NCBI GenBank assembly: GCA_003552665.1
Contig: PUNW01000220.1
Location: forward strand, 1 to 32,157
Origin: Spirochaetaceae bacterium
GTDB lineage: Bacteria; Spirochaetota; Spirochaetia; DSM-27196; SLAA01
Direction of reading: 5' to 3'
DNA length: 32,157 nucleotides
A program made the translations under genes and the position numbers. Positions 1,406 to 25,619 of this stretch are shown in pieces. Under the pieces are notes generated by a model, which saw nothing but the letters and a program-made list of their open reading frames with translations, did no database searches and had not been told where the DNA came from. The first letter of the stretch is position 1. The number at the start of each line of letters is the position of its first letter.

Positions 1406-1421
1406 GCGTAGGTGGATTGAC

Positions 1422-2375: not shown

Positions 2376-2451
2376 GGAGGCAATAGGGAAGACGAAAAAA
2401 CGTCACGTACGGGTGACGCGAATAACGACCAGCTGTATAGGAGTAACACAG

Positions 2452-3345
2452 ATGAAAATAGAAGGAGTATTCCCGGCTCTGATCACGCCCTTCCGTGAAG
2501 ACGGGGAGGTCGCAGAAGACAAGCTGCGTGCATTATTGCGTTTTCTACTTCCGCATATACAAGGTTTGTATCCATGTGGTTCGTATGGGTCTGGCCCTTT
2601 GATGACCGCGGAACAACGTATGCGAGTCGCGGAAATCGTCATGGAAGAGGTGGACGGCAGCGTTCCGGTAATTCTGCACGTCGGCGCGCCCGATACCGCT
2701 TCCACAATAAAGCTCGCCCAACACGCCGAAAAGCTCGGGGTGGCGGCGATTGCCTGCTTAACCCCCTACTACTACCTTCACGGTTTTGCTAACATCCGAG
2801 AACATTTTCGACGCGTCGTCGACAGCGTGACGTTACGTGTTTTCGTGTATCACAACCCAAAATACACCAATTTCGAGTCGTTTACTCCCGAACAGCTTGC
2901 AGAACTTGCGCAGATTGGAGTCTCGGGACTAAAGGATAGCAGCGCGAATATCGGTTTCTTCTATAATTGTGTTTCTGCGGTTGATAACAGTGAGTTTACC
3001 TTTCTGATCGGCTCGCAAACCGTGTTATTGCCGGCCCTTGTCGGCGGTGGTCACGGGTGCGTTTCGGGACTGTCGAACTTATTCCCCGTACTGGTAAACA
3101 GAATCTTCGAGTTTGCGAAAGCAGGCGATTACGATGGCGCTCTAACGCTGCAACGCAAGGCGAATACTCTACGCAAATTAACCGGCTCAGGCATACCGGT
3201 CCCCTTTTATCATGCAGCATTGAAATATCGCGGAATAGATATCGGAGTTCCTCTCAGTCCGCATCTGCCTTACTCAAATGCCGATGAAGAACGGATTTCT
3301 GAGCCTATCAAGGAAGCCATTGAGCTGGAGAAGAGTTTGGTATAG
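2452..3345 (+). CDS. Dihydrodipicolinate synthase / N-acetylneuraminate lyase family aldolase
   Basis: MKIEGVFPALITPFREDGEV..., Schiff-base Lys motif GLKDSS, catalytic Tyr motif VYHNP; AGGAG upstream of ATG 2452 (the track's 2413 start is probably too long). Confidence 0.92.
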   Translation: MKIEGVFPALITPFREDGEVAEDKLRALLRFLLPHIQGLYPCGSYGSGPLMTAEQRMRVAEIVMEEVDGSVPVILHVGAPDTASTIKLAQHAEKLGVAAIACLTPYYYLHGFANIREHFRRVVDSVTLRVFVYHNPKYTNFESFTPEQLAELAQIGVSGLKDSSANIGFFYNCVSAVDNSEFTFLIGSQTVLLPALVGGGHGCVSGLSNLFPVLVNRIFEFAKAGDYDGALTLQRKANTLRKLTGSGIPVPFYHAALKYRGIDIGVPLSPHLPYSNADEERISEPIKEAIELEKSLV

Positions 3346-3405
3346 GCCGCGTACGTTGCTGCGCGGGAGAGCCGAGTCTTTGCTAATCTGGTAAGGAGGG
3401 TTGGT

Positions 3406-4380
3406 ATGCGGAAGGCTGCGATTATTGTGGTTGCGTTGTCACTTGTTGCCGGAACGGTCCTTTGGGGCGCCGGTGCGCCTGAGGAGGAGTTTCCGACCGG
3501 CGAGATCGACGTGTACGTTGGGTTTGCCGCAGGAGGAGGAACCGACGTACTGGCACGGCGGATTGCCGAGAATATGGAGCCTGAGCTGGGTGTACCAATG
3601 GTGATAGACAACCGACCGGGTGCTGGTGGATTGGTCGCGGTTCAAGAGGTAATTAACTCGCCACCTGACGGTTATACGCTCGGGATTTTACTCGGTAATC
3701 AGTTCCTGCAGAAGCACTACAGAGAGGCAGACGCATGGATTGATCCGCTGGAAGATGTAACACTGATCGGCGTATTCAATATGGACGCTTGGGGCATAGC
3801 TGTGCCGGCAGATGCTCCGTACGAGACTTTCAACGAATTTGTTGATTATGCTCGGGACAACCCCGGCATCCACGTTGGATCGGGTCCTCCTGGGACGTTG
3901 TACTATTGGACCTGGCAGGCCGTTATTGCCGAAACCGGCATTGAGCTGACCATCGTGCCCTATGACGGGACAGCCCAATCTCTCAGCGCCGCTGCCGGAG
4001 AGGAAGTGGCAGCTGCCGGTGCCGGACCCGGAGAGGCGGCCTCCTTAATGGATGGCGGTTTGGTGCGCATGATTGGTGTGGCTGCAGAGGACCGCGTCGA
4101 CGCGTTTCCGGATATCCCCACGTTCGCAGAGCAGGGTTTCGACATAGTAATCGGGCCTTGGAGATCATTGGTTGGGCCGCCCGACATGCCAAGCGACGTT
4201 GTCGACACGCTCGCAACAGCACTTGAGAACGCGTTTTACTCAGACGACTACCAGTCTTTCATTAGCGAGCACGGTCACGGTGCATTCTTTCGAGGTCCGG
4301 ATGACGGCATGGAATTCTATCGGAACGAAGACGACGTCTTCTATAACCTTATGGCTGCCGAGGGGCAAGCGCGGGAATAG
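3406..4380 (+). CDS. tctC: Tripartite tricarboxylate transporter substrate-binding protein (TctC/Bug family)
   Basis: Signal peptide MRKAAIIVVALSLVAGTVLWGAGA, then VGFAAGGGTDVLARRIAENM...VIDNRPGAGG...PPDGYTLG; AAGGAGG RBS. Confidence 0.95.
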   Translation: MRKAAIIVVALSLVAGTVLWGAGAPEEEFPTGEIDVYVGFAAGGGTDVLARRIAENMEPELGVPMVIDNRPGAGGLVAVQEVINSPPDGYTLGILLGNQFLQKHYREADAWIDPLEDVTLIGVFNMDAWGIAVPADAPYETFNEFVDYARDNPGIHVGSGPPGTLYYWTWQAVIAETGIELTIVPYDGTAQSLSAAAGEEVAAAGAGPGEAASLMDGGLVRMIGVAAEDRVDAFPDIPTFAEQGFDIVIGPWRSLVGPPDMPSDVVDTLATALENAFYSDDYQSFISEHGHGAFFRGPDDGMEFYRNEDDVFYNLMAAEGQARE

Positions 4381-4385
4381 CAACA

Positions 4386-4829
4386 GTGCGGGCCATCGTA
4401 AACAGCTTCACCGTCACCGGAACAGCAGTTCTAATACTGACGGCGTTGGTCGCGGCGTATCTGAGGCGAATTCCATTTGCGCCGTTGAGGGCGGGGCTCG
4501 GCCCCGCCTTCTTTCCGACAGTAACGGTTACTATGCTCGGTGTCCTTGGCGTTGCCTCGCTAGTTACTGGAATCGCCTGTTCCAGACGCCAAACGTCTGT
4601 AAATGACGTCGAGCCGGTTACCCCGAGATCGTTTGTTACGGTGCTTCTCGTCATCCTGTATGCCGTAGGCATTCGGCACGCGGGGTTTCTGATTCCGACG
4701 GGGGCGTTCTTATTTGTCTCAATGGTTGCACTCGGCGTACCTGTCCGGCGTGCGGTTTTGATTACAGTGCTAACCTCAACGGCCATTTACGTAGTTTTCG
4801 GTCTCATGTTCCGTATGCGGTTGTTCTAG
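4386..4829 (+). CDS. tctB: Tripartite tricarboxylate transporter small membrane protein (TctB family)
   Basis: Four hydrophobic segments, GTG start 5 nt after the tctC stop, position between tctC and tctA. Confidence 0.8.
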   Translation: MRAIVNSFTVTGTAVLILTALVAAYLRRIPFAPLRAGLGPAFFPTVTVTMLGVLGVASLVTGIACSRRQTSVNDVEPVTPRSFVTVLLVILYAVGIRHAGFLIPTGAFLFVSMVALGVPVRRAVLITVLTSTAIYVVFGLMFRMRLF

Positions 4830-4899
4830 ACTTCGAGACGTCGTAGCGACATAGCGCTTATAGCGCCAGTCAGTTGCCGTTTATTAGAGTAGGTGGTTT

Positions 4900-6453
4900 A
4901 TGATAGTTGGGCTGGGAGAAATGCTTGAGCTCGGCCTACCGCTCGTGCTGGACGGCAGTGTCCTGCTTCTTGCCGTTATAGGTACAATCACCGGGTTGTT
5001 CGTCGGGGCCATGCCCGGTCTGTCCAGTGTCATGGCGATGGCGATCCTGATTCCGCTGACCTATCGCTTGACGCCCCAACAGGCCTTCGGTTTGTTGTTG
5101 CCTGCGTATGCCGCCGGGACGTTCGGCGGCGCTATCGGCGCGCTACTCCTCAACATACCGGGAACCGGTGCAGCGATTATGACTACTTACGACGGTCATC
5201 CGATGGCTAAGCGAGGTGACGCGGGGTACGCTATCGGTTTGAGCTGCGTATATTCGTTTGTGGGTGGAATCATAAGCGCAATCTTTCTTGCAGTTTTCGC
5301 CCCCGTCGTCGCGTACTGGGCAATTCGATTGGGCACACGTGAATACTTTGCGGTGGCGGTATTCGGACTGGGCGTCATCTCCTATCTAAGTCCTTCCTTG
5401 ATAAAAGGCCTGATAGGCGGTGCCGTAGGGTTGTTGCTGGCGACGGTCGGCATGGACGCTATTACGGGCGTATCACGATTCACGTTTGGATACGCAGAAT
5501 TGGCGGGCGGCTTAGAGTTCGTTCCGGTCATGATAGGCATTTTCGGACTTGGCGAGATTATGTACAACATCGATAAGGGAACCCGCGAAGGGGCGTATCT
5601 GCCGCAGAGGTTCGGTCGCATGCTGCCGCGACTTAGCGACGTCAAACGGTGTTTGCCGACCACTATTCGCTCGCTCGTCGTCGGTACCTTCATTGGGGTC
5701 ATTCCCGCCTCGGGCCCGACGATTGGTGCCGTAGCATCTTACGGTTTGGAGAAGCGAATCGGCAAACGCCGCGCCGAAATGGGCACCGGTGTACCAGAAG
5801 GCATTGTTGCCGCGGAGACCGCCAACAATGCGGGAACTGGGTCGGCGATCGTTCCCATGATAACCCTCGGCATACCAGGCGATGCTGTCACCGCTGTGCT
5901 GCTTGGCGCGTTGATGTTACATAATCTGCGACCGGGACCAGCACTGTTCGCGCAAAGGCTGGATGTGGTGGCGAGCATTTTCATCCTCTTTTTTCTGGGA
6001 AACGTTTTGTTCGTCATATTCGGATTGCTGGGGGCTCGAGTTTTCGTGAGGGTGCTGAAGACACCGCAACGAGTTCTACTGCCGATCGTGGCCGCTCTCT
6101 GCTTCATTGGAGCTTACGCTACGCGCCGCAGCGTTTTCGATATCCACATACTGGTTATATTTGGTATAGTGGGCTTCCTGATTCGAAAGATCGGAGTGGC
6201 TCCAGCTCCACTGATTCTCGGATTCATACTCGGGCCAATCGTTGAAAGCAATCTGCGACGTGGTCTCATTACTACCGATGGGAGCATTGCTGCCTTCTTT
6301 GCCCGCCCGGTCAGTGCTTTCCTCCTGCTTCTGACACTGGTGTTGTTGTTTAGCCCAGGTTTGATTCGCCTTGCACGAGCCGGCTTTGCAGAAGTCCAAC
6401 GGCGGCGTACGAGGGGGCATAGATCAATCCACAACGAATCCGGTCGCGAATAG
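4900..6453 (+). CDS. tctA: Tripartite tricarboxylate transporter large permease (TctA family)
   Basis: GLFVGAMPGLSSVMAMAILIPLTY..., LLNIPGTGAAIMTTYDGHPMAKRGDA..., VIPASGPTIGAVASY. Confidence 0.96.
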   Translation: MIVGLGEMLELGLPLVLDGSVLLLAVIGTITGLFVGAMPGLSSVMAMAILIPLTYRLTPQQAFGLLLPAYAAGTFGGAIGALLLNIPGTGAAIMTTYDGHPMAKRGDAGYAIGLSCVYSFVGGIISAIFLAVFAPVVAYWAIRLGTREYFAVAVFGLGVISYLSPSLIKGLIGGAVGLLLATVGMDAITGVSRFTFGYAELAGGLEFVPVMIGIFGLGEIMYNIDKGTREGAYLPQRFGRMLPRLSDVKRCLPTTIRSLVVGTFIGVIPASGPTIGAVASYGLEKRIGKRRAEMGTGVPEGIVAAETANNAGTGSAIVPMITLGIPGDAVTAVLLGALMLHNLRPGPALFAQRLDVVASIFILFFLGNVLFVIFGLLGARVFVRVLKTPQRVLLPIVAALCFIGAYATRRSVFDIHILVIFGIVGFLIRKIGVAPAPLILGFILGPIVESNLRRGLITTDGSIAAFFARPVSAFLLLLTLVLLFSPGLIRLARAGFAEVQRRRTRGHRSIHNESGRE

Positions 6454-6491
6454 CGAATTCCGCCCGTCCCCTTACATCCATCATTCCCGGG

Positions 6492-7565
6492 TTGGGGCTG
6501 GTAACTCTCATTGCAATACTCAGCCTCGTCGCATCCGACTGGTTTGGTACGGCGGTATTGGGCTTTCCCCGAAGCCCCGTCTCGCCGGTGATGGTAGCGT
6601 TGATTTTCGGAATTGTAATACGCAACAGTCGCGGGTTGTCCTTACATTTCCGGAGTGGTGTAGCATTTGCTTCCAAACGTCTGCTACGTTTAGGCATTGT
6701 GTTGCTCGGGCTTCGCCTGAGTTTCCTGGAGGCTGTCGCTTTCGCGCAAGTCGGGATACCTGTGATAATTGCCTGTGTCGTAACGGGCCTGCTTATTCCC
6801 CAGGCGTTTAACAAGGTGACTAAGCTACCTGGACGGTTGGTGACGTTGATCGGTGTGGGCACTTCAATATGCGGCGTTAGCGCTATTGCAGCAATGTCAC
6901 CGAGCATACGCGCAAACGAGCACGAAACCACGTATGCGGTTGCAACGATAACGCTGTTCGGATTACTGGCAACACTCGTTTATCCGATGATAGCCGCTTT
7001 TGTGTTTTCTGGTCGGACCTTGGCTGCAGCGGTATTTCTGGGTGTGTCGATTCACGACACGTCACAGGTGACTGGCGCTGCGTTCTTATATCAAGACTAC
7101 TTCGCAGACCCCCAGGTTGTTGAAGCAGCCATGATTACCAAACTACTGCGTAATGTATTAATGGTGATTGTCATCCCTTTGGGCACTTACTGGTATAACC
7201 GCCGCTTGAAACCTGGGCCAACCGGGAGACCTGCCGGCTCGCGTTCGCAACCTGCGGTACCGTACTTCGTGCTCGGGTTTCTGGCTGCTACAGTCGTGCG
7301 TGCCGTGGGCGACTACGTAGTCACCGGCCACGCAGCCCAGACTACTGAAAGTATCGCTGCGCTCGACCACTGGAGATGGTTTATTCACCAGGGGGAGGTT
7401 CTGTCGTCGTTTCTGATTGTAGTCGCCCTTTCGGCCGTGGGCCTGAACACACCGCTCGCAGTTTTTCGGCGCTTAGGTCTCAAGCCGCTTATGGTGGGGC
7501 TCTTTGCGGCAGTGCTCGTTGGGATCGTCGGTGCCGTACTCATTTACTTGCTCGACGTGACTTAG
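6492..7565 (+). CDS. YeiH/UPF0324 family putative sulfate/anion exporter
   Basis: SPVMVALIFGIVIRN...LRLGIVLLGLRLS...GVGTSICGVSAIAAMSP...VSIHDTSQVTGAAFLY. Start uncertain (TTG; no ATG/GTG between 6423 and 6492 in frame). Confidence 0.9.
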   Translation: MGLVTLIAILSLVASDWFGTAVLGFPRSPVSPVMVALIFGIVIRNSRGLSLHFRSGVAFASKRLLRLGIVLLGLRLSFLEAVAFAQVGIPVIIACVVTGLLIPQAFNKVTKLPGRLVTLIGVGTSICGVSAIAAMSPSIRANEHETTYAVATITLFGLLATLVYPMIAAFVFSGRTLAAAVFLGVSIHDTSQVTGAAFLYQDYFADPQVVEAAMITKLLRNVLMVIVIPLGTYWYNRRLKPGPTGRPAGSRSQPAVPYFVLGFLAATVVRAVGDYVVTGHAAQTTESIAALDHWRWFIHQGEVLSSFLIVVALSAVGLNTPLAVFRRLGLKPLMVGLFAAVLVGIVGAVLIYLLDVT

Positions 7566-7935
7566 TGAAGCTCCATCCCGATGCCGTTGTCAGCGCCCGG
7601 AACATGTGCCTTTGAAACTCGCTTCGAGTGGCTGATGCTCTGCCACGCTTCCGAGACCCTGTATTTATCAAGTGCTTGCAGCAGTACTGGAGTAGCCCTG
7701 CGCGGAGCGTAACTGAAAAGTACCGTGTTGAGTCCGAGTCGTTCAGCAAGCTCGTCGCAAACTGGCCGGAGGTTCACGGGCTGAGATTCTCGAAAGTCGA
7801 CAGAGAAGCGCTGTATCGAGATCGCGACTGGTTGGGCGAGCGAACCGCCCCACGTATGATCAATCGTATCATGCAGGCGGGACGGGTACGTATTTCGGTC
7901 GCAGCCGAAACGGCGCAAATATCGCACGCCCCGGT

Positions 7936-8098
7936 GGATGTAGCCGGTGTGAAGCTCCTGCATCATACCCTATTTCACCGCCTTTGCCTTGTCACACCGT
8001 TTTTCGAGTGCCGAGATTTCGACGTCCATGTCGGTGAAGCCGGCGGCGATGGCGGTTAGTTCTTCAGTCGGGGGCAAATGCGATTCGATAGCAATGCG
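7936..8098 (-). pseudogene. C-terminal remnant of a type I restriction specificity subunit (HsdS) with an in-frame TAG
   Basis: Minus-strand translation IAIESHLPPTEELTAIAAGFTDMDVEISALEKRCDKAKAVK*GMMQELHTGYI, resembling the conserved HsdS tail (PPTxEEQxAIAxxLSDMDxEIxALExxxxKxxxxKQGMMQxLLTG). Confidence 0.8.
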
Positions 8099-8114
8099 AG
8101 CCCAGCACACCGAC

Positions 8115-11100
8115 TCACAATGACAGTCCCGCGTTTGTGCCCGCTTCACCTGGACCCAGATCGATCTTCAACTCCTCGGCAATACTCGCGAGGTCGTCGG
8201 AATCTACTTCGCCGGAAAGGTATACGATAAGGTCCTCCTGTCGCGGCTGACCGAAAGCGAGTCGGTAGGAAGCCACCGCTTTCTGTAGGGCCTCAGCCCG
8301 GCTACGATCTCGCGAGAGCGGGAGTGAGGGGATGTAGCGCTCCACGGCGTTGCTTTGATCATCGGTATAGATCCAGTGGGGGACGATGTCATTCTGCCCT
8401 GCCGGACGATCACGTTCGGCGGCGCTGAACATGGCGTGCCACGGACTTCCGTCTGCGGCGAGCCCGCATTCGGTGTAGTGCTTAGCGATATTCCGACGGA
8501 CTGCGTGACCGTGGTAACGATGGACGCGACCTTCACGCTGTTCGAGATCCACGGGGTTCCCGGGAAGGTTCCAGTGTACAACCGCATGGCAGTACGGATG
8601 AAAGTCCAGACCTTCCTGACCAACGGAAGTGGTTGCGAGCACGAAAGGTCGAAACGGTGAGTTGAACGCTTCGCGTACTTGTGAGCGGCGGGTGGCCGTT
8701 CCGTCCTCGTTTCGCTCGTCGGCCAGCCGCAGAGCAAAGTTCGCCCGCAGTCGGTCCGGAGTGATAGACACGAGATCATCCTCGACCTCGACTCGTTTGA
8801 CGCCGTAGCGCACCGTGCGAAGGCTCACGGTATTGTGCAGAACGTGGGCAGTATCCCACAAGGCCTCAAGTGAGTTCGGGTCCAGGTGGCCGCGCGAGCC
8901 GATGAGGCTGTGGATGTACTCATCGAATACCGATTGCAGATTCCCGGCCATTGTGTAGTCGAGGGTGCGTTGCCAGTACCTTTCGCCCGGATAGAGGTAG
9001 TGAATGACCTCAGTGATGTCGGTATTGTTGAAGAGGCTGCGTACGCCCCAGGCGACGCGCGAGGCTGCATATCGCATGTCGATATCCGTTGGGAGACGAC
9101 CGGTCGCACGGGTGAGCGCACGGAGCGCGCAGACACCGTAGCCGGCGAGGGCGATGGTTGCGAGCACTTCCGCAAGATCGCCGGGCATCCGGCCTAGCTG
9201 CGGCGCATCCTCGTGAAGGACAGCGGCGCGGGCCAGCGCGAGGTGTTCGGCGAATCGGCTGCCGGCATCGCCGGCATCGCCGTGCTCGTCGGTCGTGAAT
9301 GCTGCATGTAGCGTATCAACATCGCCCAGATAATCCGAAAATTGCTCGGGAGCCTGCATTCGGTCGAGCCAGAGCGGGGCGGCCCAATACCACCGCTCAT
9401 CGGCACCGGGGCTCTGCGTGGGTTCACCCAAGGATTGCGCGCCCGTATCCGGGCGGCGCATGCGATTGAGCTCGTCGAGCGGCCTTTGCAGCCGCCCGGC
9501 GACGAGCTCCACGGCACGTTCGGGCGCTATGGGCCGGCCACCGTGCTCCCGAGTGAGTGCCAAAGGGTCGCCGAGCTCCGCAAGCACTACCGCGGGATAC
9601 ATAAGCGCGAAGACCGGCATGCCGCTCAGCCGATCTTCGCTGAGCGAGAACTCGAGAAGTCGGGACATCCTCTGTCGGCCTTCGGGAGTGTTGCTGTAGC
9701 GAACACGACCGTCGGCTCGCACCATGCGACGCTCGGCTTCATACGTAAGGATGGTGCTGATCGCAGTGGGAACCATTGCCCAGGATGAGAACACGAGCCG
9801 CTTCGTGAAATTGAATAAGGACGGGTTGGCGAATGGCCCCGTGGGCTCAAGATACGGAAGCGACGGTGGTATCCAGAGCAGCTGCCACGTTCCTCTTCCA
9901 ATCGTATCATCGATGAGCCAGCGCATTCTTGAATGCTCGATCGGTATCGGCTCAAAGGCGTGTATCTGCTCGAACGACAGCCGTTCCGCCGCCTCCACAA
10001 ACGGAACGAGACGGCGCGAATCCGTCTCCGCGATGTCATCCAGTCGTTTCCCGAGGACGTAGCGATCCATGAAGTTGACGATGTACGGGGCCGATTTCCA
10101 GTACTCCACAGTGTCGGGAGCCCGTAGCTGGCGCGCAAGCTGCGCGCTAGCCACGAACGCGCCCACTTCAGCGTCGGAGAGGCTCAGGCCGTGACAGGGA
10201 CGAGAGACGAGCATTCCGGAGCGGTCAGGAGTCGCCGAGAGCCGCTCCGTGCGCACCATGACTCGCCGCAGCGTCGTCTGCACCAGGTCACGCGCCGTAG
10301 CTGCCGCCGCTCCACCATCCTGGCCGGCCTGCAACAGACCGCGGCGCAGCGCCCGAAGGTTCGCACGAAGGCTGTCAACCGCGGCTGCGTCGTGCTCGAG
10401 TAGGAAATCGATGGTGTGCACGAGGTCCTCGTGATGATCATCATCAGTCTCTTCTGCAGTGGTGAACATCTTATATGGTGTGGCCGACAGTAGCAGCACG
10501 CGCGCTTGTGAACCCGACGCGTGATCGACATGCTCGAATAGCTCGCGGGCGAGCTCGGATGCTTCGCTCGCCAGTTCGCTACCGGGAGCAGCGAGCAGAT
10601 GCTTGAAACGCTGAAACTCATCGAGGATGATAAGGTCGGGTCGCAGGGCATCGAGGCAGGCGCGCGCAAGAAGATCGCGCATCTGGCCGATGAACTGGTT
10701 GCATTTGCGGCGTTCACTCTTTGGCCAACCGCTCACCGAACGCCCGTGCCCGAAGATACCGCACAGCTCATCGAATCGCTCGAGCAGCGTGGGCTTCCCC
10801 AACTTCACAGCAGCGGCGTCGTGCTCGTTCACAAGCCGAACAAAGCTCTCGACGAGCGTCGAGTCGAGGCGACGCCAGTGACTGTGGGCGATGTCGCGGT
10901 ACGTTTGCTCAAATCGCTGCAGCTTCTGCACACCGCCCTGAAAGACGCGCATCGATCCCCTACTCCTGAACCGCTCCTGGCCCCATGCCTGCAGCAGCAT
11001 CAATCGCAAAAGCGCGCGCTCTCGTGCCTTACCCGATCCGGCGGTAAGCTCGAATGAGGTGCCTGGGGTAAAGGAGATCATGTTCACCTTGTTCTTCGCA

Positions 11101-11438
11101 AGCTCGTGGGCCTTCGCCGGAAGCATCGTGATGCGTTCAGCAAGCTCAAAGTGCCCCTGCGCGTCAACTTGAAGACGCTGCAGGTTTTGTCGGGCGATGA
11201 GCGCGTTGGAACAGACGTAAATGATGTCGACACGTTCGACGACATCCTGAAGATGCTCGATCGTCCTCGCTATTACGCCTCGAGCAACGAGCGTTTTGCC
11301 GAGCCCAACCTCGTCGGCAATTAGAAACCGTTTTGCCGGATCGCTGTCGCGGTAGAGCCGGGAGAACACGTGCTCTGCGGTAGCACGCTGAAAGTCCTTC
11401 AGCGGCGCGAGTGCGGGTTCGGCTACGAAACGGTTCAT
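8115..11438 (-). CDS. Large DEAD/SNF2-like helicase with conserved C-terminal helicase domain
   Basis: Walker A ADEVGLGKT, Walker B LIILDEFQRF, motif III LLLSATPYKMF, motifs V/VI TTSVGQEGLDFHPYCHAVVHWNLPGNPVDLEQREGRVHRYHG. Start set at ATG 11438 (MNRFVAEPALAPLKDFQ) because of the ATGA overlap with the upstream gene; the track's M is at 11477. Confidence 0.92.
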   Translation of the reverse strand: MNRFVAEPALAPLKDFQRATAEHVFSRLYRDSDPAKRFLIADEVGLGKTLVARGVIARTIEHLQDVVERVDIIYVCSNALIARQNLQRLQVDAQGHFELAERITMLPAKAHELAKNKVNMISFTPGTSFELTAGSGKARERALLRLMLLQAWGQERFRSRGSMRVFQGGVQKLQRFEQTYRDIAHSHWRRLDSTLVESFVRLVNEHDAAAVKLGKPTLLERFDELCGIFGHGRSVSGWPKSERRKCNQFIGQMRDLLARACLDALRPDLIILDEFQRFKHLLAAPGSELASEASELARELFEHVDHASGSQARVLLLSATPYKMFTTAEETDDDHHEDLVHTIDFLLEHDAAAVDSLRANLRALRRGLLQAGQDGGAAAATARDLVQTTLRRVMVRTERLSATPDRSGMLVSRPCHGLSLSDAEVGAFVASAQLARQLRAPDTVEYWKSAPYIVNFMDRYVLGKRLDDIAETDSRRLVPFVEAAERLSFEQIHAFEPIPIEHSRMRWLIDDTIGRGTWQLLWIPPSLPYLEPTGPFANPSLFNFTKRLVFSSWAMVPTAISTILTYEAERRMVRADGRVRYSNTPEGRQRMSRLLEFSLSEDRLSGMPVFALMYPAVVLAELGDPLALTREHGGRPIAPERAVELVAGRLQRPLDELNRMRRPDTGAQSLGEPTQSPGADERWYWAAPLWLDRMQAPEQFSDYLGDVDTLHAAFTTDEHGDAGDAGSRFAEHLALARAAVLHEDAPQLGRMPGDLAEVLATIALAGYGVCALRALTRATGRLPTDIDMRYAASRVAWGVRSLFNNTDITEVIHYLYPGERYWQRTLDYTMAGNLQSVFDEYIHSLIGSRGHLDPNSLEALWDTAHVLHNTVSLRTVRYGVKRVEVEDDLVSITPDRLRANFALRLADERNEDGTATRRSQVREAFNSPFRPFVLATTSVGQEGLDFHPYCHAVVHWNLPGNPVDLEQREGRVHRYHGHAVRRNIAKHYTECGLAADGSPWHAMFSAAERDRPAGQNDIVPHWIYTDDQSNAVERYIPSLPLSRDRSRAEALQKAVASYRLAFGQPRQEDLIVYLSGEVDSDDLASIAEELKIDLGPGEAGTNAGLSL

Positions 11439-13336
11439 ATGCGATCCTTCTGCCGACAGCGCCATATCGGCTCCCATACGGTGTCGAACTCAGCCGGCAG
11501 CAGCTCGGTGCGCTCCTCAGCGAGGTCATTGAGCAGCCGATTGATGTGATCCAGTCGATCAGGATTCCGGTCGAGGGCCTGAAGAAGAAGCTCGAGAAAC
11601 GGTAAATCTCCGCTTCCGCCCGCGAGCAAGCCATTGAGCCACCGCGAGTTTCCGCCGTTCGCCAGCCGCTCAATCTGTTCGTCATTGGGACGAAGCAACA
11701 TCAACAGATAGCGAAGAAGTCGGTCGCGATCGCGGAGCATCGCCGCGAGCAAGCGGCTGCGGCGGTCGGACGGTGCGCCGTGTAGCTGCGCGTTCACCAG
11801 GAAACTGGTTGTCGCCCGAGCACTTGCCTGTTGCGCCGTGGCCCGCACGGCAATGAACGATGAGATGCCGTCAGCGGTTACGGAGAACGTGGCGCGCGCC
11901 GGGCGGCCTGGTTCCAAAGCCAACGCCGACGACGATTCCTGGAGCGTGACCGGCCAGGTCCAAAGCTCGAGTGAGTCGAAGCGTGACTCAGGTAACGCGC
12001 TGTCAGAGTGGATCTGCAGGAGGTAGTGATCATCTGCCGCTTCCACGGTCGCCCGAAAGCAGATCGAGGCCATCTCTATTCGCAGTGAGCTCAGCTCCTG
12101 CTCAAGTTTTTCGGAATCATCGGGCTCGACTGGTTTATCCGGAAAGTGATAGTCGGCGAGCAGACCGGCGAAGCTGATCTCACCTGGCACCTCGGCGAGC
12201 AACAAATCTACTCCGGTACCGCGAGGTCCTGTCAGCTCGGCAAGCACCTCGATATTGCCGTCGAACCCCGCAGCCGTCGCGTTTGCCGAGCCGGTAAAGA
12301 TGCGGCTACCCTTGTCGGTATCGAATAGGTAGAGCTTCGCGTGCAGACCGCCGATTCGCAAACCGGGGGCATGATGCTCCACCGCCCGTGTTGTTGCGGC
12401 TCCTGTGGGTTCGCGGTCGAACTCAGCATCATCCTGATGCTCTACCGTTTCGGCGTTGATTTCGACGCCGGAACTGAGAACTGCTATCCTGCCTACCGCT
12501 CCCAGTGCCGCCGCCGGTATCCTGTCGAGCGACTCCATGCGTGAAACGAGTAGCGTCAGCTCGTGCTTCCGCGTGAAGCGGTTGAGGAACGATTCGCCGA
12601 GGAATGGCGAGACAACTACCGAGCGCCTGGTACGAACTGGGAATGGGTTGGGCCTATCCGGAGCGAGCCCGAAAACGTGGAAAGCAAGCCTTTCGAACGG
12701 CTGTGGCGGTATAAGCGGTACGCGCTCGAGATCATCAGCAAGTGACGCTATCGCGTGCTCTCTTTCCGTGGGTATCGGATTCTGCGCAAGCTGTGGTAGC
12801 CGGCGAAACAACTCGGCAAGCTCCAACTGGCCTTCGACCGGCAAGTTCCTGCCGGGGGCGGTGTACGGGTGGGACTCCGCACGCAGTAGCGTGTCCGAAG
12901 AGGTGTCGAACGTGAGATTCCGCGTCGCACAGAGCACCCGCAGCAGCGCCGACTCACCGTCGATGGCACGAAAGCGCGCGAGCCATACTTTGGGATGAAA
13001 GAGACGATGCGGCCGCGGAGGCTTGACCACGTAGACCGCATCCTCGAGCCAGGCGAAAACCGTCCGCCGACGCACCGGCACCGCGATCTGGCCGGCCTGA
13101 CAGAAAATGGTGATGCTCTCCGCGTGCCGCCGGATCGCGTCTAAAAGCCCGATCGGCTCGACCTCGTTCTCAGCTATGTCAACCTCCGTCGTCTCGTAGA
13201 ATGCGCACGCCACTGGTACGGTGAGCACCGTTTCGAGGTCAAGCGAATACGACGTACCGGCTGCCGCCTCCAGCACGAAACCTTCCGGCGGACGCAACGC
13301 TTCGAAAAGGGTTGTACGATCGTGCGGACTAAGCAT
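11435..13336 (-). CDS. Phospholipase D-family (HKD) protein associated with the helicase
   Basis: GLHAKLYLFD...TGSANATAAGF = HxK(x)4D...GSxN; first half carries a degenerate motif (LFHPKVWLARF...CATRNLTFD). Start set at ATG 13336 (MLSPHDRTTLFEALRPPEGF). Confidence 0.85.
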   Translation of the reverse strand: MLSPHDRTTLFEALRPPEGFVLEAAAGTSYSLDLETVLTVPVACAFYETTEVDIAENEVEPIGLLDAIRRHAESITIFCQAGQIAVPVRRRTVFAWLEDAVYVVKPPRPHRLFHPKVWLARFRAIDGESALLRVLCATRNLTFDTSSDTLLRAESHPYTAPGRNLPVEGQLELAELFRRLPQLAQNPIPTEREHAIASLADDLERVPLIPPQPFERLAFHVFGLAPDRPNPFPVRTRRSVVVSPFLGESFLNRFTRKHELTLLVSRMESLDRIPAAALGAVGRIAVLSSGVEINAETVEHQDDAEFDREPTGAATTRAVEHHAPGLRIGGLHAKLYLFDTDKGSRIFTGSANATAAGFDGNIEVLAELTGPRGTGVDLLLAEVPGEISFAGLLADYHFPDKPVEPDDSEKLEQELSSLRIEMASICFRATVEAADDHYLLQIHSDSALPESRFDSLELWTWPVTLQESSSALALEPGRPARATFSVTADGISSFIAVRATAQQASARATTSFLVNAQLHGAPSDRRSRLLAAMLRDRDRLLRYLLMLLRPNDEQIERLANGGNSRWLNGLLAGGSGDLPFLELLLQALDRNPDRLDHINRLLNDLAEERTELLPAEFDTVWEPIWRCRQKDRI

Positions 13337-14525
13337 TGCGCTCCATCCCTTCGTGAATATCACCGACGATCCGTTGTACCTGTGCCCAGCGGAACGACAT
13401 CAACCCGCCTCCCTGGGCCGCCGGCGACTGCTCGCGCGCACGGCGGTTCGACAGCTTTGCCCGCGCTCCCTTAACCCGCTCCTCGCGCGCGATGATTCTT
13501 CGACCGATTTCGGCAGACGATACGACCTCCCTCGGATTGCCGATTGCCCGCTCGAGCCACCAGTCAACGAACAGTCGGGCGACCCGCACCCGCGGATTCA
13601 CACCCTCGAGAACACTCCAGAGCTCACCGCGCTTCCAGGCACGAAACTCCTGCCGACGGCTCTCCATCTCTCCCACCCACTCATTTAGGCGGCTCCGGAA
13701 ATCGCCGCGCAGCCCTCCCTGCCCATCTTCTGCTAGGCGCTCGGAAAGGATCACGTTGTACAGAAGTCCCGCACCCAAGACGGCGTAAGCAAACAGCCGC
13801 GCGTGAGTCAGCTGTGCGCGCACCTCCCCGGACGCTTGACCGGCGACCGGATGGGTCCATGGAGCATCACCGTGCTGGCTTGTCGACCCGTCGCGCAGAA
13901 GCAGCTCGAGGTAACTCCCTTTTTTCGCGAGCATGGCCCGGTCACGCAGAAAATCGGCTTCTTCAGGTAGAAGCTCCAGCGTAGTAGACTCGAAGAGCCC
14001 GATAGGCTCTTCCGGTAACCCCGGCCATAGCAGCTCCGCCGGATCTCGTTCCCCGGTCTGAGCGCTTTCCCGGCGGCGTTTGTCGAGCGTCGCCACATAC
14101 TCCTGAGTCGTTCCATCAAATCGGCGTATGCCCCAGGCGCCGAGACCGCCCCAGTATATGACTCCCGCAAGGCGCTTCGTCGCCGCACCCGACTCCCGGC
14201 CGATAATCCCTTCCTTCTCCGAGCTCCCCCGCATCAGCGCCTCGATCGTCGCCACCTCGAGCTCCCGGGCCCGACGCAGCCCGTTCGCTGAGGTCACCCG
14301 CTCACGGTCGAGCCGGCGATAGACCCACGGAACAAGCAGAAAGTATCGAGCGCGTGTCTGAATCGTGCTTATACCGGGGAAAAGGATGTCGCTGAATGTG
14401 TCGCGAATAATGCCGAGGCCCAGCGGATCCACCATTCCCGGTTGGTCGAATGCGGCAAGCGCTTCGCGCACTCGTTGCTGGTCTTCGTCGCGGGTATCAA
14501 ACCAGGTGAAGGTGGAGACTGGCAC
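13329..14525 (-). CDS. DUF6361-like protein, first gene of the PLD/helicase operon
   Basis: MPVSTFTWFDTRDEDQQRVREALAAFDQPGMVDPLGLGIIRDTFSDILFPGISTIQTRARYFLLVPWVYRRL; recalled family signature. GTG start with GGAGG 6 nt upstream. Confidence 0.75.
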   Translation of the reverse strand: MPVSTFTWFDTRDEDQQRVREALAAFDQPGMVDPLGLGIIRDTFSDILFPGISTIQTRARYFLLVPWVYRRLDRERVTSANGLRRARELEVATIEALMRGSSEKEGIIGRESGAATKRLAGVIYWGGLGAWGIRRFDGTTQEYVATLDKRRRESAQTGERDPAELLWPGLPEEPIGLFESTTLELLPEEADFLRDRAMLAKKGSYLELLLRDGSTSQHGDAPWTHPVAGQASGEVRAQLTHARLFAYAVLGAGLLYNVILSERLAEDGQGGLRGDFRSRLNEWVGEMESRRQEFRAWKRGELWSVLEGVNPRVRVARLFVDWWLERAIGNPREVVSSAEIGRRIIAREERVKGARAKLSNRRAREQSPAAQGGGLMSFRWAQVQRIVGDIHEGMERNA

Positions 14526-14625: not shown

Positions 14626-14637
14626 ACGAGTCATTAA

Positions 14638-14732
14638 ATCCGTAGGGGAGCCTGCAAGGGCGGGCTGAGAGGAAGGCGAATGCCTTCGACCCTGCGAACC
14701 TGATCTGGGTAATTCCAGCGAAGGAAACGGAG
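14638..14732 (+). ncRNA. TPP riboswitch (THI element)
   Basis: GGGGAGCC...GGGCTGAGAGG...GACCCTGCGAACCTGATCTGGGTAATTCCAGCGAAGGAAAC matches the THI-box consensus; P1 TCCGT (14639-14643) / ACGGA (14727-14731). Confidence 0.95.
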
Positions 14733-14835
14733 CGCCCCACGTGCCGATACCCGATAGCTACAGCCAGCACCACGGTCATCACAGCCGACGCGCGCACGCT
14801 CCGATTTCTTTCCGGAGCCTGAAAGGAGGCAACAG

Positions 14836-15480
14836 GTGAGTCACCTATCGAGTCGCTTGTGGCAGGAGTGTGCAGACAAGGCTTACGCAATCCTCGATCA
14901 CCCGTTCGTCCGTGGTATCGCCGAGGCCACGCTCGATCCGACGGCATTCAAGTACTACATCGCGCAGGATCGGCTCTATCTGCAATCGTTCGCTCGCGCC
15001 TATTCGATTGCTGCCGCTAAATCGCCGGATTGGCATGCGTTCCAGTCGTTCCACGAGCTCGCCGGCGGTGTACTGGATGAACTGAAACTTCACAAAAGCT
15101 ACGCCGAATCGTGGGGTCTTGAGCCTGAGTCCGTCGTTGCTTCAGCGACAACTCGTCGTTATACCGATTTCCTGCTGGCCACAGCATGGAGCAGCGACGT
15201 GGGTACCACCGCTGCCGCCATGACGCCATGCATGAAACTATATGGCTTCTTGGGCTCGGAGATTGCCGAAAGACGCGGGATACCGGCCGATCCGTTCGGC
15301 GAATGGGTGAAGACCTATGCCGCGCCGAGCTTCCATGACTTGGTGAGTCAGCTCGAAGGGCTGGTAGACCGATACGCCGACGACAGCTCTGCCGTTCATT
15401 CCTGTTATCAGTACGCTATCGAGTGCGAGGAAGCCTTCTTCTCCGCTGCGATGGCCGAAGCCGGAGCGTCCGGCGGGTGA
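14836..15480 (+). CDS. tenA: TenA family thiaminase II / aminopyrimidine aminohydrolase
   Basis: LSSRLWQECADKAYAILDHPFVRGIAEATLDPTAFKYYIAQDRLYLQSFARAYSIAAAK; GTG start with AAAGGAGG; preceded by a TPP riboswitch. Confidence 0.93.
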   Translation: MSHLSSRLWQECADKAYAILDHPFVRGIAEATLDPTAFKYYIAQDRLYLQSFARAYSIAAAKSPDWHAFQSFHELAGGVLDELKLHKSYAESWGLEPESVVASATTRRYTDFLLATAWSSDVGTTAAAMTPCMKLYGFLGSEIAERRGIPADPFGEWVKTYAAPSFHDLVSQLEGLVDRYADDSSAVHSCYQYAIECEEAFFSAAMAEAGASGG

Positions 15481-15551
15481 GCCGAGCTCGGCAATACCCG
15501 GCTCAAAGCTGTAGAGCGCGGAGCCCCTGCGCGGTGAGAAAGCGGTAGATC

Positions 15552-15597
15552 GAGCGCTCGCAAACGTGAGCGCTCTCATCAAGGGTTGTTACCGCGG
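15552..15597 (+). ncRNA. Possible degenerate T-box-like leader 3' part (stem III-like hairpin plus T-box-like core)
   Basis: Hairpin GAGCGCTC-GCAAACGT-GAGCGCTC (15552-15575) followed by AGGGTTGTTACCGCGG (15582-15597), close to the T-box consensus AGGGTGGNACCGCGG. Confidence 0.4.
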
Positions 15598-15697
15598 CGG
15601 GGCGCCTTCTTATCGTCGGCTGGGAGGGAGGCCCCTCAGGTCTCTGTATTGATCTCCCCCGGGAACTAGTGTCAGTATGTAGCCGCAGCGAGGGCTC

Positions 15698-17050
15698 ATG
15701 TCGATCGACGAACTGCATCAGAGGATTCGCGCCACCCGTACACAGGATCTCGAGACCTTATGCGAGCTCGTACGCCGGCCGAGTATCAGTACCCGGGGTG
15801 AAGGCATCGAGGAATGCGCTTCGCACCTGAAGGACATCATGACACAGGCCGGTATTGGCGCACGGGTGTACGAAACCGTAGGGAACCCGGTGGTGTTCGG
15901 GGAGGTCGCGGCCGGGGCCGAGGGTATGCCGACGGTGTTGTTCTACGGTCATTACGACGTGCAACCGCCAGAGCCGCTCGACGAATGGCTCTCACCGCCG
16001 TTCTCACCCACCGTGCGAAACGGGCGCCTCTACGGTCGCGGCACCGGCGACAACAAGGGCCAGCTGCTGACGCACATCCTCGCGGTGCGGTCGTATCTGC
16101 AGACCACCGGCACGGTCCCGATCAACGTCAAGTTCCTGTTTGAAGGCGAGGAAGAGACCGGAAGTCCGTCCTTAACCGAGTTCGTAACAACCAACCGCGA
16201 GCTGCTCGCCGCGGATCTGGTACTGACCTCCGACGGGCCGATGCACGAAAGCGGCGCTCCGCAGGTGGTGTTCGGAGTCCGCGGCATCATGAACATGGAG
16301 CTGCGCCTTTGCACCGCCAGGAGCGACAATCACTCCGGCAACCGCGGAGGCGTGATCCCGAATGCGGCATGGGAGCTGGTGGAGCTCCTGCGGACAATGC
16401 GAAGCCCCGACGGTGAGGTCACGATCGAGGGCTTCTACGACGACGTAGTGCCGCCGAGCCAGTACGAGCTTCAGATGCTCGACAGGCTGCCCTACGATCC
16501 GAGCGCGCTCGCCGCGGTATACGGCGTGGAGCGCCTTGACCTCGAAAAGACCGAGTTCTATCGCAATCTGATGTTTCGTCCCACGCTCACGATCAACGGC
16601 CTCTCGGGCGGCTATAGCGGAGCCGGCACAAAGACGATTATCCCCGGTGCCGCTTCCGCCAAACTCGATGTTCGCCTGGTGCGCGACCAGAAACCGCACG
16701 ACATATTCGCCAAGATCGAGCGTCATATCCGCACACATAACCCCCGCGCTGAGCTGATCCCTCAGGAGGAAGACATGCTGCCGTCGCGCACCTCGGCCGA
16801 ACTGCCGATCTCACAGGCGGTAATCGCAGCGGTCGAGCAAGCGTTCGGCCGGCGGCCTTTTGTGTTGCCGTCGATGGGAGGAAGTCTGCCGGACTACGTC
16901 TGGACCAAACGGCTGGGCGTGCCCTCGATCATGGTGCCGTACGCGAACGCCGACGAAGCGAACCACGCGCCGAACGAGAACATAGCACTCGAGTGCTTCT
17001 ACAACGGAATCCACTGCTCGGCTCACATCATGCACGAACTGCAGAAGTAA
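15698..17050 (+). CDS. M20 family metallopeptidase (dipeptidase/deacylase)
   Basis: VLFYGHYDVQPPEPLDEWLSPPFSPTVRNGRLYGRGTGDNKGQ...FLFEGEEETGSPSL: M20 metal-site motifs. Confidence 0.95.
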   Translation: MSIDELHQRIRATRTQDLETLCELVRRPSISTRGEGIEECASHLKDIMTQAGIGARVYETVGNPVVFGEVAAGAEGMPTVLFYGHYDVQPPEPLDEWLSPPFSPTVRNGRLYGRGTGDNKGQLLTHILAVRSYLQTTGTVPINVKFLFEGEEETGSPSLTEFVTTNRELLAADLVLTSDGPMHESGAPQVVFGVRGIMNMELRLCTARSDNHSGNRGGVIPNAAWELVELLRTMRSPDGEVTIEGFYDDVVPPSQYELQMLDRLPYDPSALAAVYGVERLDLEKTEFYRNLMFRPTLTINGLSGGYSGAGTKTIIPGAASAKLDVRLVRDQKPHDIFAKIERHIRTHNPRAELIPQEEDMLPSRTSAELPISQAVIAAVEQAFGRRPFVLPSMGGSLPDYVWTKRLGVPSIMVPYANADEANHAPNENIALECFYNGIHCSAHIMHELQK

Positions 17051-17265
17051 CGCCGGGCACCGTTTATCGGTATTGCTTCGGCGATCGCGACCGACCGGCG
17101 GTGTCGTCGGCGCTTTCAAGCCGCCTGGTCAGATCGCTATCACGGAGTGTCGACAAGCGAATGATCGATGCCGGACGCCTGCGTCATATCGCCGGACCCG
17201 TCAGAGCCGAACAGCCTGATTTCCTCCGAGCCCTAAGGGTAAGAGCCATGGAGCCCCGCAGGCTG

Positions 17266-17741
17266 TCAGTCATGGAAGCCTAAGATATCCCGGACTTCCC
17301 CTTCTGTGAGGCCGGTGATCTCGGCCACGTCAGCCACAGTGAACCCACGATCAAGGAGGCGCCGCGCAGTCTCGGCGCTCATCTCCCGGCGGCCCTCCTG
17401 GCGGCCCTCTCGGCGACCTTCCTGTATACCTTCGTGTTTCAGTCTCTCGGCTGTATTCACCACTCGCTCCTTAATTGACTCCTTGATAAACTCCGTCTCC
17501 AGCAAACGGTTGATCATCTCGATGAGCTCATTCGGCTCGTACGGCGTGGCGGCGAACATATATAATTGTAGAATACAAAACCCGCGTGTTCCACCAACAC
17601 TCTGCCCACCGTTGACGCAAGTCGGTCAAGAGCAGCGATAAGCGCTTCCGGACGGGCGAACTCAAGCAGACTGCGCAGAAGCTCAGGGCGGGAGAAGTAG
17701 GAGCGGAAGAACTCGTCGTGGGGATGTTTTGGAATCTTCAT
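17266..17741 (-). pseudogene. Degenerate Rpn-family (recombination-promoting nuclease / PD-(D/E)XK transposase-like) gene
   Basis: Intact N terminus MKIPKHPHDEFFRSYFSRPELLRSLLEFARPEAL (17741 downward) and C terminus FAATPYEPNELIEMINRLLETEFIKESIKERV...EGRREGRQEGRREM...(17559-17266) in different frames; central nuclease core missing. Confidence 0.8.
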
Positions 17742-17874
17742 CGTGTTCGCGGCTGCCTTCTCAACCTACTACTACCGGGGTTGCGGGCTCCGTGTTTCGC
17801 TAAATGCCGCCACTATTGAAAAACCCTGTCGCTCTGGTTTGTGTCGCGGCCCTCATGTAGAGTAGGATCGGGAT

Positions 17875-19578
17875 ATGGCAAAGATCATCCAATTCCCAGG
17901 AGGCGACTCCCGCAACCACGGCAACAATCATGATCACAGCCATCATGATAATCACGACCATCATGATCACGGCCATCGTGAGAACCGGCACGAGTCGCCG
18001 TTCCCACACAGCCGCTATCCGAACCTCATGATGTTCGACCTTGGGTTGTCCGACCGTCAGGTAGAGATGCTTGTCTCCGGTGACCCAGCTTCCCGGCGTA
18101 CAATCGTTGAGATCGCGCCGGAGCTCACCGAAGCCGACCTCGCGTCTGTTCCCATGCTGCGTTACGCCGATGGCCTTCTCAGTGCCGTTTACGACAATGA
18201 ACCGGTCAAGCTGACTGCCAAAGGCTATCTGCCGAGAGCGATGGTCAAGGCGCTCATGGAGGGGGCGTTTGCTGATGCCGAGCCGTTAAGCGCTCGCGTG
18301 AACCGGGAAGGCGACACCGTGATGCTCTCCTGGACTCGCCGGCTGTGTCAGTTTGGAGGGTTGCTATCAGTTCGAAGCGGCGAGTTGCGCCTTACAAAGG
18401 CCGGTCGAGCTGCGGTGGAAGCATCGAACTATTCGGAGATCTACCGGCTGCTGCTTGAGTGCCACCTTCGTAAACCGCAGATGCTCGACGCATTTGATCG
18501 CTACGACGACGGAGGCGCCATCGGACGCAGTCTACCGTTTTTGCTGTTCGCCGCGCGGGACAGTAACCACAGCTTTCTCTATGAGGAGGATTTCGCCCTA
18601 CTCCTGTACGCGGTGCACCCCAATATCAGGTTCATCCTCGAAGAGCTCAACCGCGCCGTCACACTCAAGATGTTCAGGCGCTTCGGCGTTCCGTTCGGAT
18701 TGTTTTCGCCGGGGCCTTCGTTCACTCCACCGGTCCATACTGGAAAGCAGTACCGCGACCACTTCGGCCGCTGGGAGCGAACACCGATATTCGAGCGCGT
18801 GTTCCGCTGGCATACCGAACCGCCGCCGCGCGGTGTAATGAGCCCGGAGCAGGCTGCCGTCCATTGGATGAACGCAGCCCACGAGACCGGCGTTGAGGGC
18901 GACGACGCGATCGGCTGGTACGTGGAACGCTACTGCATGCGCGCGATCGAACGCTGCCCGGAGGACCCGGATGCCTACGTTGTTTGGGCACGGTTACACC
19001 CCGAGGAGCCCGAAACCGCGCTTGCAATCATCGAGCACGGACTATCCGCGTCGGCCGGACGTGCTCCGGATATGCCGGAAGGCATGAGCCCGTGGAGCGA
19101 CCACGAGTTTCGCGACGTCATGAGGCTGCACTTCCAGCGGGCCGAAACGCTTGCGAAGCTCAAGCGCTACGAGGAGGCGGCCGCCGAGTACGAGTGGCTG
19201 CTTGAGCTGGATCCATACGACGCAGTTGGCGCTGCCGACTGCTATGTGCCGTTGCTGATCTTAGACGGCCGGTACGACAAAGCCGAAGAACTCCTGCGTT
19301 CACGCACCCGTGAAGATGACTGCTTTGCGGCGTGGAATCGGGTGCTCGCCGCCTACGCCCGTGGGGACCGGGAGGCCGCACGCGCACGACTCAAGCAGGC
19401 GCTGCAGATCAACCCGTACGTGCCTCAGTGTCTGCTCGACCGTGTACGGGAGTCAATGCCGAGTCGATACGTCCCCGGCGACATCAGCGAGGCAATCGTC
19501 TACGAGAACCTCTCGTTCTCCGCCTGGAAAGCGGTCAAGGGCGCACGCGAATGGCTGAAACGAAACGTCCCCGACTGA
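17875..19578 (+). CDS. TPR-repeat protein with His-rich N-terminal segment; N-terminal domain reminiscent of pRiA4b ORF-3/SEC-C-associated proteins
   Basis: NHDHSHHDNHDHHDHGHRENRH at residues ~17-38; LTAKGYLPRAMVKAL...FGGLLSVRSGELRLTKAGRAAVE; C-terminal TPR-like helices. Confidence 0.75.
   Translation: MAKIIQFPGGDSRNHGNNHDHSHHDNHDHHDHGHRENRHESPFPHSRYPNLMMFDLGLSDRQVEMLVSGDPASRRTIVEIAPELTEADLASVPMLRYADGLLSAVYDNEPVKLTAKGYLPRAMVKALMEGAFADAEPLSARVNREGDTVMLSWTRRLCQFGGLLSVRSGELRLTKAGRAAVEASNYSEIYRLLLECHLRKPQMLDAFDRYDDGGAIGRSLPFLLFAARDSNHSFLYEEDFALLLYAVHPNIRFILEELNRAVTLKMFRRFGVPFGLFSPGPSFTPPVHTGKQYRDHFGRWERTPIFERVFRWHTEPPPRGVMSPEQAAVHWMNAAHETGVEGDDAIGWYVERYCMRAIERCPEDPDAYVVWARLHPEEPETALAIIEHGLSASAGRAPDMPEGMSPWSDHEFRDVMRLHFQRAETLAKLKRYEEAAAEYEWLLELDPYDAVGAADCYVPLLILDGRYDKAEELLRSRTREDDCFAAWNRVLAAYARGDREAARARLKQALQINPYVPQCLLDRVRESMPSRYVPGDISEAIVYENLSFSAWKAVKGAREWLKRNVPD
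17927..17977 (+). repeat. Imperfect intragenic repeat encoding the His-rich tract
   Basis: ATCATGATCACAGCCATC (17927-17944) and ATCATGATCACGGCCATC (17960-17977), one mismatch, 33-bp period (11 codons). Confidence 0.8.
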
Positions 19579-19750
19579 AAGTGGGGCCGGAGATTGTGCT
19601 GCCGCACCGTAGGCATCTGCAAGCGTGCATGTCGATCACATTGCTTTCTGGAACAACACCCCGCGGCGTTGAGCCGTACCCAAGCGTCGGCCTATACTCC
19701 TGAGCCGTAGTCGTCGCCGGATCGGCACCGGCGTGTTTGGAGGAGTACTG

Positions 19751-21562
19751 ATGACAGCTCGCAAACCCCTTGCCTTTAAGCCGTTTTGTGAGGCACTCGA
19801 ACAGCATTGCCGCACGCTCTCGTACGACGAACTGGTTGAACTGGTGATCGCCCTCGGAGCCCGAGTGCGCCCCGGCGAGCGGCACGCGTTTCTCGAGGAG
19901 GTGGGCAGTCTGGCCGACCCCGCCGCGCTGGAGGTCGATCCCGGATCGTTAGCCGCGAAAGCCGAGAGCTTTGCGCAGGAGCTGCAGACCCGTTGGGAGG
20001 CGATCGCCGACGGCAGCTACTGGGAGTTGTACGGCGACGAAGAACTCGAGATTTCGGGCCGCTATTATCGCGACCCATTTGACGTGCCGGCTATTACCGA
20101 AGAGCACTGGGCAAGACTGCTCGAGCTGTTCGCAGAGGCAGATTCGCTGTTCGCCGACGGCAGCCTTGAGGATGCCCGCAGAGCGTACGAACCGCTCATC
20201 TCTCTGTTTCGACGCGGAGACGATCTCCCGTTTCACGCCTACGCATCCGACGACCCAGAGAAACTCGATCTCCGGGAAACGCGGGCACGCTACGCGCGCT
20301 GCGTATACGAGACCGCTCCGCTCGAGAGTCGCTTAGAGCGCACCCTTTGGGCGATGGAAGCGACCGTACAGTCTCCGTTCGCCGATCTGGCCCTGTCCGA
20401 TTCCTACCCCACCTTCACTGAGATGGCTGAAGCCCGGCGCGCCGAGCTACCCGATAGGGAGAGCTTTCTGCAGAGCTGGAGAGAGCGGTTGCACGAAGAA
20501 GTCGGTGTTTCGGCCCGAGCGCAGGCCCTGTTTCTGGAGGCCGTGGAGCTCACCGAGGGTGAGCCGGGGCTGCAGCGAGTGGCGCGCGAGTGGTGGCCCG
20601 GGCGGCCGCTTGCTTATCGGTACTGGATTGAGTATCTCCGCAACCGCGAGCGCCGGCTGGAGGCGGTCCACGCCGCCCGGGAGGTGCTGCGACTGGAGGA
20701 CACCGGTTCTGCGAACGAAGCCTTTGATTCCCGTGACCGCCGAAGCGTGAGAAGATATGCCGCAGAGACACTCGTGCATGTAGGGCGGCAGCTGCAGGAC
20801 GATGAGATCGTGCTCGAAGGCCGTAGGGCCCTGTTCTTACTCGAGCGCTCCGAAGAATCGCTGGCCAATTTGCTGCAGGCAGCCGAGACGCTCGACCGTC
20901 GAGAGATCGAGCTTAAGCAGGCGATTGATATCCTCGCGGCCGGTAAGCAGCGCCACAACGCCACGCATGTGAAGGCGCTCATAATTGCCGGACGGTTGGG
21001 TGACACATTTGCGATCGCGCGTTCCGGGAAATCGGTCGGCTGGTCATACTCCGATTGCGCTATGGGCCTGTGTTTCGCGGCCATACTCGCCCACAGCGCC
21101 GACCGGGATGCCCGACGCGCAGGCGGGGGCGGTGCCGGTACTCCCACAATCAAGCGGCTCCTGGTGGAGTACGCGGAGGCTCCACACCCCTTCATCGATC
21201 CTGAGGTTAAGACCTCCTCCGACGAAGAAGCAGACCGGCCCAATAGCTATCTCGTACAGGTGATCTTTGAAGGGCTGACGCAGGCCGGGCTCGGCCGGGA
21301 AACCGCTGCGTCGTATCTGCGGTGGGCCGAGAAGGTTGGCCGCGCACGGGTCGATCACATTGTTTCCGAGAAGCACCGTGGGGCGTATCGGCGCGCCGCT
21401 GAGACCCTGGTAGCGCTTGGAGAATACTATGCCGCAACGGCTCGACCGGACTCGGCAGCTGCCTTGATTCAAGAGTACCGTGAACGCTTCAACCGGCACA
21501 TCGCGTTTAAGCGGGAGCTCCGCGAGGTTCTTTCGGAAAGCGGACTCATAACGGACCTGTGA
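19751..21562 (+). CDS. Large alpha-helical / TPR-like protein of unknown function
   Basis: Long intact ORF, start MTARKPLAFKPFCEALEQHC at 19751 with GGAGG RBS; helical repeat composition, no catalytic motif recognised. Confidence 0.75.
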   Translation: MTARKPLAFKPFCEALEQHCRTLSYDELVELVIALGARVRPGERHAFLEEVGSLADPAALEVDPGSLAAKAESFAQELQTRWEAIADGSYWELYGDEELEISGRYYRDPFDVPAITEEHWARLLELFAEADSLFADGSLEDARRAYEPLISLFRRGDDLPFHAYASDDPEKLDLRETRARYARCVYETAPLESRLERTLWAMEATVQSPFADLALSDSYPTFTEMAEARRAELPDRESFLQSWRERLHEEVGVSARAQALFLEAVELTEGEPGLQRVAREWWPGRPLAYRYWIEYLRNRERRLEAVHAAREVLRLEDTGSANEAFDSRDRRSVRRYAAETLVHVGRQLQDDEIVLEGRRALFLLERSEESLANLLQAAETLDRREIELKQAIDILAAGKQRHNATHVKALIIAGRLGDTFAIARSGKSVGWSYSDCAMGLCFAAILAHSADRDARRAGGGGAGTPTIKRLLVEYAEAPHPFIDPEVKTSSDEEADRPNSYLVQVIFEGLTQAGLGRETAASYLRWAEKVGRARVDHIVSEKHRGAYRRAAETLVALGEYYAATARPDSAAALIQEYRERFNRHIAFKRELREVLSESGLITDL

Positions 21563-25596: not shown

Positions 25597-25619
25597 TCGG
25601 ATGAACAGGAGGTGTTACT

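Follow-up and report, generated by a model that had tools for sequence, protein, structure and literature searches.

DISARM, which comprises DrmA, DrmB, DrmC, DrmD and a methyltransferase, combines a PLD-family protein with a large SF2 helicase. A PLD nuclease is also found in SauUSI and other PLD-helicase restriction enzymes, which include the NgoAVII R protein and BfiI, and in SauUSI, the PLD domain is fused to the helicase. Two further PLD proteins, Tdp1 and PLD3, carry both HxK..N half-sites in a single chain. The closest known system is ZacABC, a candidate defence system that is represented in PADLOC-DB 2.0.0 by the protein models PDLC03828, PDLC03829 and PDLC03830. No description or experimental test of ZacABC or DUF6361 was found in the open-access literature searched, and both are absent from the two PADLOC papers.

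Here, an operon is described from a contig of 32,157 nucleotides, called the window, which belongs to an incomplete Spirochaetaceae bin (76% complete). Three intact minus-strand genes fill positions 8115–14525, and they lie adjacent to one another in the order zacA-zacB-zacC. Each product is matched by its PADLOC model: ZacA over residues 4–395 of 398 (368 bits) and ZacB and ZacC over nearly their full lengths. By sequence, the operon is thus an intact copy of ZacABC, an assignment that rests on the protein models matched and on gene order. This answers a question left by the preliminary description, namely whether a defence finder already names the trio. The window copy agrees with the PADLOC system in the order and strand of its genes and in each of the three proteins, with no difference found, and its proteins are approximately 19–45% identical to those of other members. 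Pfam, in turn, finds no more in the trio than DUF6361, a weakly matched PLD domain and the C-terminal domain of a helicase.

The genes had been described as translationally coupled behind one promoter, and both overlaps are present in the sequence (Table 1). Relatives likewise show short overlaps or gaps between zacA and zacB, and a spacing of –4, as in the window, is the commonest between zacB and zacC. One good promoter-like site, a candidate identified by consensus match, lies 39 nt 5′ of zacA. It agrees with the consensus at 10 of 12 positions, and the shuffled region averages 0.2 such sites.

Table 1. Coordinates of the zac operon and of neighbouring features in the window
Feature	Position	Strand	Remarks
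zacA (DUF6361)	13329–14525	minus	398 aa; GTG start, GGAGG ribosome site upstream
zacB, tandem PLD protein	11435–13336	minus	633 aa; PADLOC ZacB, 505 bits
zacC, SF2 helicase	8115–11438	minus	1107 aa; PADLOC ZacC, 1107 bits
zacA/zacB overlap	13329–13336	minus	8 nt
zacB/zacC overlap	11435–11438	minus	ATGA
Sigma-70-like promoter candidate, TTGACT-17-TATGAT	14592–14564	minus	consensus match only
HsdS C-terminal relic, internal TAG	7935–8110	minus	just 3′ of zacC; neighbour, outside the system
TPP riboswitch (Rfam RF00059)	14634–14743	opposite to zacA	5′ of a tenA-like thiaminase gene, divergent from zacA

Conservation of the trio was assessed using a ZacC profile scan of one genome per species, which gave at least 556 confirmed relatives, of which the best 80 were kept. 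Among these 80, 66 independent loci have at least 3.1 kb of upstream sequence, and 64 of the 66 contain the full zacA-zacB-zacC in the same order and on the same strand, so the operon arrangement is not due to chance. Of the two exceptions, L081 retains a remnant of zacB and has no zacA, and in L094, zacA is split. In addition, DUF6361 and a long zacB match occur in the identical 7 genomes of a 393-genome sample from the window's phylum, and in an eighth (G353), zacB is reduced to a fragment that contains a stop. There is no universal fourth gene, the top neighbour cluster being present in 14 of 86 loci. The three-gene make-up is constant, which supports the earlier proposal of a stand-alone system with no other partner. 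The best 80 of the at least 556 ZacC relatives, all of them near full-length, come from many bacterial phyla and from archaea. One Gemmatimonadetes contig (L125) holds two complete Zac operons (6788–13207 and 16297–22648) in opposite orientation within 16 kb.

ZacA is assigned to DUF6361 by Pfam (E = 8.7e-52) and is predicted, confidently, to be all-helical (pLDDT 89.8). When the predicted model was searched, there was no PDB or BFVD match at E ≤ 0.001, and for this reason a role as adaptor or sensor is a guess. ZacC contains the full set of SF2 motifs, namely Walker A DEVGLGKT, DEFQ, SATP, TSVGQEGLDFH and QREGRVHR, and these are conserved across 11 sequences, in agreement with its earlier description as a large DEFQ helicase. 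The two RecA lobes are separated by about 580 residues. Among proteins of solved structure, RapA is the one closest to ZacC by sequence, and ZacC is only loosely related to DrmD, DpdE and RapA. The conserved motifs point to a putative ATPase.

ZacB had been described as a PLD-HKD protein; the PLD family stands, and the single HKD motif does not. Instead, two conserved HxK..N half-sites are present in one chain. The first comprises F113-H114-P115-K116 and N140 (pattern FHPKxW...R...N...D, 113–148) and the second, H332-A333-K334, G349-S350-N352 and E363 (pattern HAK...GSANAT...N.E, 332–363). H114, K116, N140, D148 and E363 are invariant in all 70 sequences compared, and 68–69 of these keep H332, K334 and N352. 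These two half-sites rule out a single-HKD dimer of the kind formed by DrmC or BfiI.

The AlphaFold model of ZacB (pLDDT 86.4) has Tdp1 and PLD3 as its nearest solved folds (Foldseek E down to 3.3e-6, probability 1.00, TM only 0.30–0.44). The identity to these proteins is approximately 11%, and unlike them, ZacB carries an additional beta and helical region at its C-terminus and has a helicase as its partner. Conservation within ZacB is lowest in the C-terminal beta region, where target recognition could possibly take place. The conserved motifs suggest putative nuclease chemistry. Polyphosphate kinase is also among the fold matches, and since PLD folds occur in such non-nucleases as well, this is a point against the nuclease reading.

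Sequence and fold similarity also connect the second PLD half of ZacB to the restriction enzymes SauUSI (profile match 1e-7) and BfiI (2e-4). In contrast to enzymes of this type, Zac has separate polypeptides, a tandem PLD and the extra subunit ZacA. The make-up of a SauUSI-like type IV enzyme is not seen here, as the PLD protein and helicase are encoded by separate genes and no SRA-type domain was found in the Pfam scan.

The resemblance to DISARM is one of logic, a PLD protein paired with an SF2 helicase, and there is weak similarity to DrmD and DrmC. However, the NCBIfam scores fall far below the cut-offs (67.5 versus 610 bits for DrmD and 18 versus 133 bits for DrmC), and the DpdE model also matches far below its own. 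Neither DrmB nor the DISARM methyltransferase DrmM was matched by PADLOC among the window proteins scanned, and no MZB domain was found among those scanned against Pfam; the sole MZB gene of the genome is on another contig. The window does encode a methyltransferase (24518–25522), which is of the Methyltransf_11/25 type and not a DNA methylase. Zac differs further in the two HxK half-sites of ZacB and in ZacA, which has no DISARM counterpart. The preliminary description, which noted the shared logic and the missing DrmB and methyltransferase and set the locus apart from DISARM, is supported on this point. That Zac is a degenerate DISARM variant is highly improbable; it was rejected on the cut-offs and missing parts, and Zac has models of its own and a constant three-gene make-up.

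Several lines of evidence suggest that ZacABC travels between distant microbes. In a tree of 91 ZacC sequences, the phylum labels require 37 changes, where the minimum is 15. Near-identical ZacC proteins are shared by an Achromobacter isolate and by bins of Synergistaceae and Desulfovibrionaceae, although stray contigs can occur in bins. The trio is carried on plasmids, some of them conjugative, in Cronobacter, Bradyrhizobium, Phaeobacter and the archaeon Halomarina, and in Cronobacter and Phaeobacter it adjoins recombinases or transposases. A phage-borne Zac was rejected, as two scans of 2.9 million viral contigs gave no confirmed copy and the sole match in a phage collection comes from a faecal scaffold that is unverified and also bears type I restriction genes. 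In that scaffold (L065, 2946–18266), hsdM-like, hsdS-like and hsdR-like genes are followed, after a 12 bp gap, by zacA.

In Cronobacter, a 6.3 kb segment (L061, 8875–15159) consists of the Zac operon and an adjoining tyrosine recombinase gene. In C. malonaticus p1, approximately 30 bp stand in place of this segment and the flanks align at 86–95% identity, which by alignment makes p1 a natural empty site for Zac in Cronobacter plasmids. By DNA similarity, at least 32 Cronobacter plasmids have part of the downstream flank, 18 have Zac, and the Cronobacter zacC has no E. coli homologue. Within the window's own genus, the region is rearranged in the relative G395, which was compared for an empty site. 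The zac operon has a GC3 of 0.69, with values of 0.53–0.63 in the left half of the window (671–7565) and 0.66–0.79 in the right (14836–28675), a step which suggests that the two halves have different histories.

The genes around Zac in its relatives appear rich in restriction and defence functions. At E ≤ 1e-15, 125 and 94 PADLOC families were matched among 77 and 72 flank proteins, compared to 22 for a control of 120 proteins taken from arbitrary stretches of genomes; this enrichment is only indicative, since redundant helicase models inflate the count and the control is taxonomically different. The flank clusters include HsdR-like, DrmD-like, HNH, UvrD/AddA-like, HsdM and HsdS proteins, with names given partly from sequence inspection. 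The proposed defence-island setting is supported by these neighbourhoods, and the HsdS relic beside zacC, which had been reported with it, is real and fits them. Its translation, LPPTEELTAIAAGFTDMDVEISALEKRCDKAKAVK*GMMQELHTG, matches the type I S subunit 1yf2 (E = 2.5e-6) and is at most 62% identical to plasmid S subunits. In an alphaproteobacterial subgroup (L063, 794–6963; L066, 921–6973; L143, 840–6907), PD-(D/E)XK and UvrD genes, which are AddAB-like, lie directly 5′ of zacA and possibly form an extended system with Zac. The window's bin also contains a second, partial zacAB, ended by the contig edge (L001, contig C294, 1–2439). It is 61–67% identical to the Halomarina haloarchaeal plasmid copy and only 36–37% to that of the window, and it may represent another Zac system of the bin or a haloarchaeal contig that strayed into it.

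The reading favoured here, with moderate confidence and from anatomy, is that ZacABC is a defence system in which ZacC is the motor, ZacB the nuclease and ZacA the tether or recogniser. ZacC, an ATP-driven SF2 motor, would load on incoming foreign DNA, move along or remodel it and deliver it to ZacB. ZacB would then cut the DNA as a phosphodiesterase of the tandem-PLD kind that probably needs no metal and has one complete predicted active site in each chain. The all-helical ZacA would tether ZacB and ZacC to each other or recognise the target. As no cognate methyltransferase is conserved, a dedicated mark that protects self DNA is improbable, and self DNA would probably be spared, in a type IV-like logic, through the modification of the target, the structure of the DNA or its state of replication. 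The same absence makes classical restriction-modification less likely and favours type IV-like or structure-based targeting, or abortive infection.

Abortive infection, in which ZacB would degrade cellular DNA after ZacA and ZacC sense infection, draws on this lack of a conserved protective methyltransferase beside Zac and on the fact that PLD nucleases can be non-specific. However, no toxin-antitoxin-like control element was seen and direct restriction is the more typical setting for large motor ATPases, which makes it unlikely, if worth keeping in view. The same modest weight is given to the idea that the targets of the trio are plasmids or conjugating DNA and not phage, or that it serves mobile elements themselves as a competition module. 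Carriage on plasmids, including conjugative ones, the adjoining recombinases or transposases and the lack of a confirmed copy in the 2.9 million viral contigs all fit this idea, but defence systems generally ride on mobile elements, and Zac is also common on chromosome-like contigs amid restriction genes.

The Tdp1-like fold of ZacB, together with the AddAB-like genes upstream of zacA in one alphaproteobacterial group, could instead indicate a housekeeping operon for DNA repair or recombination, for example one that clears blocked or protein-linked ends. This is improbable given the sparse, patchy distribution in the phylum sample (7 of 393 genomes), the plasmid carriage, the natural presence and absence and the restriction-gene neighbourhoods. 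A defensive form of the same chemistry, slightly more doubtful still, would have a Tdp1-like ZacB attack DNA ends that are blocked or linked to protein, such as those of relaxase-bound conjugating strands or terminal-protein phage genomes, while ZacC would expose such an end and ZacA would recognise it. Were this true, Zac would be a defence in which DNA ends and adducts are sensed, in place of sequence or methylation.

Zac is thus a widespread system that is listed in a defence database, yet it is without a description in the open literature searched. Its anatomy, with two putative catalytic histidines, a putative motor ATPase, an orphan helical subunit and no conserved protective methyltransferase, gives sharp predictions. 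Given that no such methyltransferase is conserved, how Zac spares its host is a testable question.
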